Source: a virus
Length of the DNA: 30,328 nucleotides
Strand: one strand, 5' to 3'
Virus record (IMG/VR): IMGVR_UViG_3300034418_001037
Span: 1 to 30,328 of that record
The position numbers and the translations under genes are program-made. Shown here piece by piece: positions 1 through 29,008 of the stretch; position 1 is the stretch's first letter, and the number at the start of each line of letters is the position of its first letter. The notes beneath the pieces were generated by a model. The model saw only the letters and a list, made by a program, of their open reading frames with translations, was not told the DNA's origin and made no database searches.

Positions 1-395
1 CCGCCCTCTCACCCTTCCCGTAGGACGCCCCTCACCGTAGATCACAGTATACTACCGTAGAAGCACTGTGTCAAGAGGGTAGGTGCCCAAACTAGAACCA
101 TTTCTACGGTAATCATGGTTATAGCACCATTCCGCCGTGTTCTATGGTGTCATACGGCTAGGTCAGACGATTTCTCACATTTTACACTATGATAGCACCA
201 TAGACAGCGGTTGTCAATGGTTTTTGGGCAATCTAGAGTGGTTTTTTTACCATTTTCCACCGTGAGATATGGTGATCTCCGTGGTGTTAGGGCTGGTTTG
301 TTCACGGTTTACATTAGAAATACGGTGTAAACCATTGATTTTATTAGACTTTTTTGGTGGGGCCTGTTTGTATCTATATCATATCGCCTGTGCGT
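1..395. other. Gene-free region packed with inverted repeats
   Basis: No plausible coding frame on either strand. The region contains three direct CCGTAG copies (18-23, 35-40, 55-60), one inverted copy CTACGG (104-109), and a perfect 9-bp inverted pair ACCGTAGAA (54-62) and TTCTACGGT (102-110). A further 8-bp pair, CTATGGTG (143-150 region) and CACCATAG (196-203), spans about 45 bases. The palindromic array at 43-333 is listed separately. The composition is more GC-rich than the flanking genes. Possible roles are a replication origin, a partition-like or operator region, or a structured transcript. Confidence 0.6.
43..333. repeat. Array of palindromic units with CCGT/CGGT centres
   Basis: Four units have ACCAT and ATGGT arms, starting at 97 and 115, 126 and 144, 197 and 217, and 249 and 269. 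The start-to-start distance is 18 bp in the first two and 20 bp in the last two. Each has CGGT or CCGT near its centre. Unit 0 has CACAGT (43-48) and ACTGTG (65-70) around CCGTAG. The last unit has GGTTTACA (306-313) and TGTAAACC (326-333) around ACGG. The regular geometry suggests a family of binding sites or hairpins rather than chance. Confidence 0.55.
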
Positions 396-623
396 CTACA
401 CTTCCCCAACAGCACCATCCACTCTAGTTATATGCCAAGCTACTTCTAAAAGCACCAAATATGTGTAGAGTTTTTCACTCATTTCTATGCCTTCCCATAT
501 GTATAAGTCTTCTTCTGGATTAACACTTGTTGCGTATTTTAGTTTGTATTTGTTAACTGTGTGTTCTATATAATCATCTGTAGCACCGTCATAGCACACT
601 ATGTCAACCTTTATGACGTTCAT
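396..623 (-). CDS. Hypothetical small protein
   Basis: 75 residues, ATG after AAGGATATAGTC, overlapping the glycosyltransferase stop by 20 bases. It looks like a small alpha/beta protein (IKVDIVCYDGATDDYIEHTVNKYKLKYATS, SEKLYTYLVLLEVAWHITRV). The C-terminus is VDGAVGEV before TAG. No known family is apparent. It is the last gene before the gene-free repeat region at 1-395. Confidence 0.55.
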   Translation of the reverse strand: MNVIKVDIVCYDGATDDYIEHTVNKYKLKYATSVNPEEDLYIWEGIEMSEKLYTYLVLLEVAWHITRVDGAVGEV

Positions 624-2133: not shown

Positions 2134-2158
2134 TTTGTTTACTCCTTTTTATTACAAC

Positions 2159-2179
2159 ACACTTAACTTCGTTAAGTGT
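2159..2179. repeat. Hairpin in the leader of the 90-residue gene
   Basis: A perfect 9-bp inverted repeat, ACACTTAAC and GTTAAGTGT, with a 3-base loop (TTC on the plus strand). On the minus strand it ends about 9 bases before the AAAAAGGAG ribosome binding site. There is no T-tract, so it is not a normal terminator. It could stabilise the mRNA or be an operator. Confidence 0.5.
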
Positions 2180-2186
2180 ATTCGTG

Positions 2187-2250: not shown

Positions 2251-2271
2251 GAAATAAATTTTATATACTTC

Positions 2272-2491
2272 CTGTTGAAAGTCATACGACGGCTAATGTA
2301 GTTTCTGACACAAAAAAAATGTCTCACTACCTTAGCTCATCGTCGCTCTCAACAGAAAGGCGCTATCGCTCTTCCTGAGGCCCTATGCGGGCGACCCATT
2401 CCTGGGTTAACGACTCCTTGTATCCTTTAACTGAGATGTTTGACTATGTATAACTCAGACTCTTGCGAGCGGACCAGGCATACCACTGTTA
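2272..2491 (-). ncRNA. Candidate structured non-coding RNA, about 220 nt
   Basis: No gene fits here, and the 3' end of the 139-residue gene is immediately upstream. On the minus strand at least six helices can be drawn: CUC-GCAA-GAG (2461-2470), CUGAG/CUCAG (2431-2458), ACCCA-GGAA-UGGGU (2394-2407), GCCC/GGGC (2380-2392), a 7-bp stem CAGGAAG/CUUUCUG with an inner GC-GAUA-GC (2353-2377), and a long five-part hairpin (2272-2355) with stems of 7, 5, 5, 5 and 4 bp and a U-rich loop. Two loops are GNRA tetraloops only on the minus strand, which sets the strand. The outer stem of the last hairpin and the CAGGAAG stem share bases, so they may alternate. Base composition is visibly GC-richer than the neighbouring AT-rich DNA. 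The class is not identified. Confidence 0.6.
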
Positions 2492-2911
2492 TTATGCACC
2501 CCAAGGAGGAGATGCATCAGCGACAGATTCTTTAGCCGTCATATTGTAATCTGTTTTTTTGTTCTGTGTAATCACAGTAGGGTTCCTAAGTGCCTTGATT
2601 TTTTGTGCCTGGGATAATTTTCTTTGTTGCTTGTATTTTTGTGTGTTTAAGCCGTTGATTGTGATATTTTCTAATTTGTCTAGATGTTTCTGTTTAAGTT
2701 TCTTTTTTCTATGAAAACACCATTCCCAAAAACAAGCCCAACTTGCTTGATTGCTACGAGTGATATCGTTCCATAAATTATTTCTGATCTCAAGCAATAT
2801 TCTTAGATCATTAAATTCAGGATGTGTGAAGATATCTTTGGCTTTTACGCCATACTTTTTCTTGGCCCAATAGCCAATTAATTGTTCTTGTTCAAGTTCT
2901 TGGTAGTTCAT
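2492..2911 (-). CDS. Unknown basic protein, single gene under its own promoter
   Basis: 139 residues, ATG preceded by AAAGGCAGTATAAG. The N-terminal half looks folded and aromatic (EQLIGYWAKKKYGVKAKDIFTHPEF, LLEIRNNLWNDITRSNQASWACFWEWCFH). The C-terminal half is a long basic stretch (RKKKLKQKHLDKL, KYKQQRKLSQAQKIKALR) and ends acidic-neutral in ASPPWGA. There are six Trp, two Cys and many Lys. No known domain is evident; the basic half could bind RNA or DNA. It has its own promoter and is flanked by a terminator upstream and a structured non-coding region downstream, separate from the late operon. The gene might act with that RNA; this is only suggested by position. Confidence 0.6.
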   Translation of the reverse strand: MNYQELEQEQLIGYWAKKKYGVKAKDIFTHPEFNDLRILLEIRNNLWNDITRSNQASWACFWEWCFHRKKKLKQKHLDKLENITINGLNTQKYKQQRKLSQAQKIKALRNPTVITQNKKTDYNMTAKESVADASPPWGA

Positions 2912-2951: not shown

Positions 2952-2980
2952 ATAATAACACCAAATAAACTGAAAGTCAA
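2952..2980 (-). promoter_or_regulatory. Sigma-70 type promoter for the 139-residue gene
   Basis: On the minus strand -35 TTGACT (2975-2980) and -10 TATTAT (2952-2957) are exactly 17 bases apart, matching 5 of 6 consensus bases in each box. It begins 3 bases after the terminator's T-tract and ends about 40 bases before the ATG at 2911. The tandem terminator-promoter pair makes the downstream gene an independent transcription unit. Confidence 0.8.
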
Positions 2981-2983
2981 GCC

Positions 2984-3029
2984 AAAAAAAACTCCTCTAG
3001 CACAATTAGGAAGAGTAGCTAGAGGAGTT
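2984..3029 (-). terminator. Strong intrinsic terminator ending the late operon
   Basis: On the minus strand a perfect 12-bp stem (AACTCCTCTAGC, 3018-3029, with GCTAGAGGAGTT, 2990-3001) closes a 16-base loop. It is followed at once by an uninterrupted T-tract overlapping the last stem bases (eight A on the plus strand, 2984-2991). This is the textbook form for Rho-independent termination in the direction of the late genes. Confidence 0.9.
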
Positions 3030-3044
3030 ATAGGATCATACAAT

Positions 3045-28047: not shown

Positions 28048-28228
28048 AGATCCTTTTTTCTAGTAAGTCTATTCGTTTGCTTTGCAATTCTATTTGTTCT
28101 TGTGTTTTGTTTAGTGTGTCCAACAGCACCTTTTGGTTTTTGATTAGATTATTCAAATGCTTGTCTGCATGGTTAGCAAATTTAACCAAATCCATTAGTG
28201 TGTCATATGGGTCTCCGTTTTCAAACAT
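28028..28228 (-). CDS. Small coiled-coil protein, unknown function
   Basis: 66 residues from the ATG at 28228, which overlaps the previous stop as TGATG. A GTG codon sits just upstream in frame, but the TGATG coupling makes the ATG the natural start. After a short acidic N-terminus the protein is one long predicted helix with heptad-like hydrophobic spacing (LNNLIKNQKVLLDTLNK, then EQIELQSKRIDLLEKRI). This suggests a dimeric or trimeric coiled coil. It has no Cys, no membrane segment and no recognised domain. It is translationally coupled to the genes on both sides. The function is not known. Confidence 0.6.
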   Translation of the reverse strand: MFENGDPYDTLMDLVKFANHADKHLNNLIKNQKVLLDTLNKTQEQIELQSKRIDLLEKRIYGIDES

Positions 28229-28662
28229 CACACTAGCCTTTGCTTTAATCTTTTACCATTTTCTATAGGTATACTACTGGCTTGTTCATATGTCCAACCA
28301 AATTCTTTTACTCTGCGTCTAAAACATTCTGCATGTATACCATTTGCCATTGCTATTCTACGCCAATGTCCATATTCTGTGTGATCTATGCGTAGGGTTG
28401 ACATGTTTTTTTCTTTAGAACACCATTCTACATTACCTGGTTCATAATTAGCAAGTTTGTTGATTCTATTTAGAACATGTTCTGCACTTGGACGAGGTCC
28501 TAGATCATCTAACCAATTGATAAACCCTTGTTCTCCCTTCCAATCATCACATACTTCAGTTTCAACATAATATATTTCATTGTGTTCACAAGAATATATC
28601 ATTTTATACCATATGCGCCATTCAGCAAGATATTCTTTTCTTAGATCACTATACAAGCTCAT
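28228..28662 (-). CDS. HNH-type homing endonuclease-like protein
   Basis: 144 residues from the ATG at 28662, which overlaps the upstream stop by 14 bases. An ATG 24 bases further upstream exists but has no Shine-Dalgarno sequence. The core reads VCDDW....FINWLDDLGPRPS.EHVLNRI....NYEPGNVEWCS. This is the classic layout of phage HNH/AP2-associated nucleases, where the family consensus is roughly F..DMG.RP...LDRIDN...Y.P.NCRW. The C-terminal third (YGHWRRIAMANG...FRRRVKEFGWTYEQA) looks like a helix-turn-helix DNA-recognition module, as is usual for these mobile genes. The first Asp of the LDRID segment is Asn here (LNRIN), so catalytic competence is uncertain. It is probably a free-standing selfish gene inserted in the accessory block. 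Confidence 0.65.
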   Translation of the reverse strand: MSLYSDLRKEYLAEWRIWYKMIYSCEHNEIYYVETEVCDDWKGEQGFINWLDDLGPRPSAEHVLNRINKLANYEPGNVEWCSKEKNMSTLRIDHTEYGHWRRIAMANGIHAECFRRRVKEFGWTYEQASSIPIENGKRLKQRLV

Positions 28663-29008
28663 TGTCTCTCTCGTAGTTGATGTCATGGCTGTCAGTCCAT
28701 TCAGTTGTTTTGACTGTTTTCAACATTTTTTCATAACAGTGTTTTCTCATGTGTGTTCTCCTAGCAACAATTATACAGTTGTGAGCACCCCATGCTTCAA
28801 TTGGATCCTTACGCACCATACAGTATTGATGTATTTTAGGTCCTCTGTGTTCTTTGACACCTGAACGATCCCACATGTCATACCAATCTTCTAATTCAAA
28901 AGCCCATTCTTGTCCTAGTGCTCTTGCTTGAGCTTTTGCCATTGAATATTTCGTAATCCATTCTCTTGGTATGCCATTAGGATTGTCATATACTTTTTTA
29001 AATGGCAT
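28649..29008 (-). CDS. Small HNH/homing-nuclease-like protein of a marine-phage family
   Basis: 119 residues, with a very good ribosome binding site (AAAGGAGG) ending about 6 bases before the ATG and a start that overlaps the preceding stop by 11 bases. The sequence has a Trp-rich N-terminal helix region, then WYDMWDRSG..EHRG, then QYCMVRKDP..AWG.HNCIIV.R..H. This order (aromatic helix, RG turn, C-V-R-D segment, W..N segment, terminal His) resembles small phage proteins related to HNH or DUF-type homing nucleases. The standard HNH catalytic triad is not clearly complete, so it may be a degenerate or DNA-binding relative. The next gene downstream encodes a second protein of the same general type. 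The function is not established. Confidence 0.45.
   Translation of the reverse strand: MPFKKVYDNPNGIPREWITKYSMAKAQARALGQEWAFELEDWYDMWDRSGVKEHRGPKIHQYCMVRKDPIEAWGAHNCIIVARRTHMRKHCYEKMLKTVKTTEWTDSHDINYERDNELV

Follow-up and report, generated by a model that had tools for sequence, protein, structure and literature searches.

What is the noncoding stretch that follows a small gene in a viral contig, and what might gene and stretch do together? The question is raised by IMG/VR virus record IMGVR_UViG_3300034418_001037, whose positions 1 to 30,328 we analysed whole and refer to as the window (30,328 nucleotides, nt). Downstream of a minus-strand gene at 2492-2911, the original prediction, made from the sequence alone, had drawn a candidate structured RNA at 2272-2491. 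We confirm that this RNA is real and find that it is longer than was drawn. Covariation among homologues demonstrates its helices and a pseudoknot, and the RNA is strictly linked to one family of small basic proteins encoded directly upstream. We give even chances to the proposal that this two-part phage cassette yields a ribonucleoprotein whose RNA can adopt two folds.

A noncoding region that folds on the minus strand

No credible open reading frame occupies 2272-2491, as had been claimed. The expectation of a minus-strand fold held up as well: the segment 2260-2500 reaches -81.5 kcal/mol against -60.3 +/- 4.8 kcal/mol for shuffled sequences (z -4.45; 0 of 200 shuffles), and the plus strand of the same region folds less strongly (z -2.9). 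Both GNRA tetraloops that had been noticed are present (GCAA at 2466-2463, GGAA at 2402-2399), as is the long interrupted hairpin, which spans 2359 to 2268. GC content is raised relative to the neighbours, as stated, but only modestly (0.44 versus 0.39 in the flanks). The drawn extent does contain RNA, but the start lies earlier: two hairpins, P0 and P1, had been missed upstream of it, and they overlap the 3' end of the coding sequence 2492-2911 (Table 1).

Homologues in phages

With a long tail protein as query, a protein search returned 51 related phage loci. A blastn comparison among these loci located the RNA in L047 (67% identity over 242 bases), where it follows a gene whose protein is only 40% identical to that of the window gene. 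We scanned IMG/VR with the conserved loop motif from the window and L047, required the flanking stem, read the surroundings and removed false positives in coding sequence, which left 14 members. The RNA class to which the window belongs, class A, has members in 20 further phage contigs, of which 19 hold the RNA whole and one is truncated by the end of its contig. A related class, class B, occurs at seven distinct loci; its P3 loop differs (UUUCAANNCAUCNGU), and P1, the U run and the 3' arm are the same as in class A. Motif-collected members share the P3 loop motif used in the search, so the apparent conservation of that loop is inflated; members found through the protein vary somewhat there. 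Member contigs are fragments, and some are near kin (L095/L119, L134/L160 and L139/L173, with L132/L350 identical in the region); L048 and L336 are one contig.

Every member is a virus contig, and in the majority genes for tail, terminase or capsid lie close by, which supports the suspected phage origin. That the phages are aquatic rests on our reading of relatives (a lake phage, pelagiphages), not of sample records. A pattern scan of bacterial and archaeal genomes (84,980 species) gave three matches, all lacking the P3 stem, so this motif revealed no prophage copy. Two relaxed loop patterns yielded no further members among the matches listed, and blastn of the RNA against cultured phages gave chance matches only. 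Relatives L015, L045 and L052 have the neighbouring genes in common with the members, and the cassette is absent from their available sequence. In another relative, phage DSL-LC06 (L003/L056, OR003941), the matching place is a 756-nt noncoding gap (572-1328) that the RNA model does not match and whose fold barely exceeds chance (z -1.4). This gap and the region before class B RNAs have AUAAACCAGUGCU in common.

Covariation demonstrates the helices and a pseudoknot

We assessed covariation on a MAFFT alignment of the 14 sequences that was built blind to structure, with shuffled and slid alignments as controls. For P0, P2, P3 and the pseudoknot together, 79.9% of cells were paired (62.1 +/- 1.7 after shuffling), 19 pairs had changed on both sides, and the covariation score reached 0.443, compared with 0.176 +/- 0.020 in shuffled and at most 0.169 in slid alignments. 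A register-corrected block alignment paired 87/98 cells in P0, 94/98 in the pseudoknot, 54/56 in P2 and 75/76 in P3, values reached by none of 2000 strand permutations, with compensatory changes at 7/7 pseudoknot positions. P1, followed in 24 members, pairs in 157/168 cells, likewise with compensatory changes at 7/7 positions (0 of 5000 permutations); its unsupervised covariation score is 0.719 versus 0.188 +/- 0.043 shuffled. Hand-made block alignments could favour the structure, and the unsupervised alignments used as a check agree with them. All 14 members also fold better than shuffles (mean z -5.8 for the RNA strand and -4.1 for the opposite strand), and the RNA strand outfolds its complement in 13 of them.

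Compensatory changes thus exceed the controls in the manner of a conserved structured RNA. We consider the covariation overwhelming, and the structured-RNA interpretation has come through an Rfam search, the collection of homologues and the covariation analysis. That P1 and P0 overlap coding sequence in the window and in several other members might suggest that the folding is accidental or a side effect of coding constraint, but covariation far above shuffles and slides refutes this. Some members have their stop codon before P0 and keep the stems, which are therefore not a coding by-product; we leave this explanation practically no weight.

A constantly linked protein gene

A gene of the same family lies directly upstream of the RNA in all 14 motif-found members. 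The linkage also holds in reverse, among loci found by protein similarity alone, independently of the RNA. When the downstream sequence was searched with a covariance model, the RNA stood just 3' of the gene at 6/6 distinct loci with complete sequence there (L346, L348, L337, L343 (= L344), L341 and L345; E 5e-13 to 1e-6), and L336 gave a partial match where its contig ends. A second protein subfamily, which has only the N-terminal part in common with the first, is followed by the class B RNAs at their seven loci. The linkage between gene and RNA is strict. In the window and many members the coding region runs into P0 and P1; in others the stop codon precedes P0.

Partner proteins have 104-161 residues and isoelectric points (pI) of 8.5-10.5. 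The AlphaFold model of the window protein is all helical, with a mean predicted local distance difference test score (pLDDT) of 77. The family has no significant match in Pfam (scattered weak matches), NCBIfam or PADLOC; in PHROGs, single members weakly match families of unknown function (best 3e-5). Fold searches of the PDB gave a best E of 3.0 with Foldseek and a best Z of 5.2 with VIA-align, usual for helical bundles, and a sequence search against solved structures returned nothing usable for the protein. BFVD holds four matching proteins, all from uncultured phages, and tblastn with four partner proteins against cultured phages found no match at the sensitivity used.

Architecture and alternative pairings

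Table 1 Features of the RNA and its cassette in the window
Feature	Position	Strand	Description
Structured RNA, class A	2252..2554	minus	~300 nt; as now delimited
P1 hairpin	2523..2554	minus	Stem 2554-2548 with 2529-2523; element X in loop
Element X core GACGGCUAA	2532..2540	minus	In P1 loop; complementary to 3' arm core
P0 hairpin	2494..2517	minus	Stem 2517-2511 with 2500-2494; pseudoknot strand in loop
Pseudoknot strand PKa CUCCUUG	2502..2508	minus	In P0 loop
P2 hairpin, GCAA loop	2459..2470	minus	Abuts P3 directly
P3 stem-loop	2431..2458	minus	18-nt strongly conserved loop UUANACAUAGNCAAACUU at 2453-2436
Pseudoknot strand PKb CAAGGAG	2414..2420	minus	After P3; pairs with P0 loop
P5 hairpin, GGAA loop	2394..2407	minus	By direct reading; GNRA-type loops in many relatives too
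Strand A CAGGAAG	2371..2377	minus	First direct-repeat copy; partner B
Strand B CUUUCUG	2353..2359	minus	Partner A or A'
U8 run	2312..2319	minus	At long-hairpin tip; 6-9 U in 24/24 members checked
3' arm core UUAGCCGUC	2288..2296	minus	Partner 5' arm or X
Strand A' CAGGAAG	2268..2274	minus	Second copy; closes long hairpin with B
Partner gene	2492..2911	minus	Small basic (pI 9.7) all-alpha protein; constant RNA partner
Putative sigma-70-type promoter	2952..2980	minus	TTGACT-17-TATTAT, TG before -10; 69 nt upstream of gene start
Putative intrinsic terminator	2988..3031	minus	14-pair stem, then T run; just upstream of cassette, insulating it from late operon

The original prediction had noted that one strand is shared between two pairings, and this is borne out in the window: both copies of CAGGAAG are complementary to CTTTCTG, with one mismatch or wobble. 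A direct repeat of 6-12 nt (A, A') flanks a common complement, B, in 9/14 members, and a member's own A and A' share more than in any of 5000 permutations. Element X and the 3' arm match as complements in 185/216 cells (24 members), which 0 of 5000 permutations reach, with linked changes, for example from GACGGC/GCCGUC to GAUGGC/GCCAUC and GGGGUAA/UUGCCCC. Within the long hairpin, this 3' arm has the 5' arm as a second partner. Evolution has kept both alternative pairings as conserved complementarity.

Read from these complementarities, the RNA would have two folds: one with X paired to the 3' arm and A to B, the other with the 5' arm paired to the 3' arm and B to A'. The conformational switch that had been thought possible gains comparative support in this way, but folding energies count against it. 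Nearest-neighbour energies favour the long hairpin, so the case for a switch is a comparative one; the X-bound form may be limited to transcription or to a protein-bound state.

Two smaller observations concern the 3' half and its surroundings. Three members (L067, L127 and L351) have a short hairpin immediately 5' of the U run in the apex of the long hairpin, resembling an intrinsic terminator within the RNA. Beyond the RNA, many members (for example, window 2152-2180) have short hairpins of the type AACGAAGTT that lack a U run and often stand two or three in series.

Genomic setting of the cassette

Within 170 nt upstream of the gene, 12/24 members have a strict sigma-70 promoter, compared with 0.13 expected from shuffles, which supports an own promoter for the cassette. 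In the window this promoter comes after a strong putative terminator (Table 1). Terminators 3' of the RNA are scarce among the members. In three phages, L327, L331 and (with respect to its left side) L328, the pair is oriented against its neighbours. The frequent own promoter and the placement on either strand mark the pair as a self-contained cassette. The gene 3' of the RNA differs from member to member (methyltransferase, GIY-YIG endonuclease, terminase region, tail genes), and some members have it in convergent orientation.

Close to cassettes (window 28228-29008, L321 and L322) lie a number of small genes of HNH-like or GIY-YIG-like type, suggesting that homing endonucleases are frequent in these phages. 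In the noncoding contig end at window 1-420, ATAGCACCAT recurs and there are inverted repeats of 10 nt, for example TACCGTAGAA / TTCTACGGTA; these may be regulatory sites present in several copies. Genes of known role in the window and in DSL-LC06 are mostly structural, glycosyltransferase or methyltransferase genes, and neither the window nor the annotation of the circular 29.8-kb DSL-LC06 record shows an evident replication gene.

Comparison with known RNAs

Covariance models of Rfam 15, including IMES, Ocean-V and GOLLD, gave no match at gathering thresholds; permissive searches returned best E values of 5, 0.33 and 3.1, from hits whose scores stay well under the gathering level. The window contains no transfer RNA (tRNA) or transfer-messenger RNA (tmRNA) by ARAGORN or the Rfam criterion for a tRNA-like domain. 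The P3 loop bears a short resemblance to tmRNA, AUAGUC beside AAAC; with no tRNA-like domain we rejected that identity, and we rejected the loop as a short open reading frame since the frame is not kept. A retron was tentatively set aside because no reverse transcriptase was recognised by eye in open reading frames within ~4.5 kb, no profile search having been made.

Several described RNAs are similar in one respect or another. GOLLD and ROOL are ornate large RNAs of phages and prophages, elaborate, pseudoknotted and of unknown function (PMC12286853). The RNA described here is also phage-borne, elaborate and pseudoknotted. Those RNAs, however, exceed 600-800 nt, lie near tRNA islands and have no identified protein partner, whereas ours is ~300 nt long, has no tRNA in the window, is tied to one protein family and matches neither covariance model. 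As a precedent for the layout seen here, a RAGATH-18 RNA lies 13 nt downstream of a TnpB gene whose protein binds RAGATH-18 RNA (PMC11061315), and the IS607 TnpB guide RNAs derived from it resemble our case in being structured RNAs directly 3' of a partner gene. We find no RAGATH-18 match, and a TnpB guide RNA (omega RNA or reRNA) was rejected on the size of the partner (104-161 against ~390 residues for TnpB) and the lack of a TnpB/RuvC match in Pfam, NCBIfam and PADLOC. OLE RNA, large and structured as well, has a protein dedicated to it, OapA (PMC12286853); OapA is a membrane protein, whereas the protein here is basic and charged, and Rfam gives no match to OLE. The manA and wcaG motifs are structured RNAs of marine metagenomes and phages (PMC2864571). 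The wcaG RNAs apparently serve as cis-regulators of particular genes, whereas here the downstream gene is not conserved and there is no Rfam match. The L17 downstream element, likewise a structured RNA in the 3' untranslated region of a small protein gene (PMC2864571), belongs to a ribosomal gene of Lactobacillales and Listeria and has no match here.

Weighing the explanations

In the explanation we prefer, one transcript would first encode the small basic helical protein and then end in the ~300-nt structured RNA. The RNA itself forms hairpins P1, P0, P2, P3 and P5, a long hairpin tipped by the U6-U9 run, and a pseudoknot between the P0 loop and the strand that follows P3. Processing would cut the RNA out of the transcript, the protein encoded alongside would bind it, and the two would act together as a ribonucleoprotein in the infected cell. 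Binding or processing would select between the two folds: the lower long hairpin would rearrange as the 3' arm pairs with the 5' arm or the P1 loop and as B pairs with A or A' (9/14 members tested). Of these steps we infer that the RNA is processed, that the protein binds it and that it switches, as we do any part played in host takeover or phage competition. In favour stand the covariation, the linkage found from RNA and from protein alike, the second RNA class with its own protein subfamily, the basic proteins and the all-helical model, the cassette's orientation and frequent promoter, the better folding of the RNA strand and the RAGATH-18 precedent. Several points weigh against this explanation. 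Protein searches returned no recognised RNA-binding fold, and positive charge is a weak argument for RNA binding. In 5/14 members no duplication of strand A is evident, and nearest-neighbour energies, which leave pseudoknots and protein out of account, put the X pairing 4-35 kcal/mol behind the long hairpin. A cis role in the mRNA, moreover, would give the same linkage of gene and RNA.

Such a cis-acting element of the 3' untranslated region, by which the protein would bind its own transcript end and control stability, termination or read-through, with the alternative pairings as regulatory states, seems unlikely to us, yet it is the most serious rival. The overlap of P0 and P1 with the coding end in many members fits it, as does the scarcity of terminators after an RNA that has a U6-U9 run within, and the L17 downstream element offers a precedent (PMC2864571). 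The downstream gene, however, varies and is convergent in some members, which rules out control of the next gene as a general role. Known autoregulatory sites are also far simpler than this RNA. A small RNA acting in trans without the protein, for instance with loops that pair with host factors or sequester them, while the gene is merely its carrier transcript, would account for the own promoter and the strongly conserved P3 loop and U run; we think it improbable, because a second RNA class accompanies a second protein subfamily, which suggests that RNA and protein have co-evolved. Small protein, adjacent structured RNA, phage cassette and own promoter together recall a type III toxin-antitoxin system, with the protein as toxin and the RNA as antitoxin. 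In known systems of this type the RNA precedes the toxin gene and is made of tandem repeats, whereas here it follows the gene, reading of the 14 sequences revealed no tandem array (no dedicated repeat search was run), and PADLOC and Pfam give no match; this makes such a system very improbable. Slighter still are the prospects of a DNA element whose hairpins, in single-stranded or cruciform DNA, would serve packaging, replication or mobility. The cassette does occur at varied places and on both strands, like a mobile element, but the RNA strand outfolds its complement in nearly every member, G-U pairs and GNRA-type loops fall on that strand, and the promoter is directed into the cassette.

Implications

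At the family level, neither the RNA nor the protein has a described relative: Rfam gives no match, and Pfam, NCBIfam, PADLOC and the PDB give no significant one. GOLLD and ROOL stayed unexplained for years, partly for want of a known partner. Here the genome itself supplies the partner, so that a direct binding test is possible. The two mutually exclusive pairings kept by covariation would make this a rare natural example of a large RNA switch outside the riboswitches. Placement at different sites on either strand suggests a transferable cassette, as genes for counter-defence or superinfection often are. In its broadest form our proposal falls a little short of an even chance: a new class of phage ribonucleoproteins, each a small helical protein with a two-state, multiply pseudoknotted RNA, that would be exchanged among aquatic phages as an autonomous cassette and would act in trans during infection.
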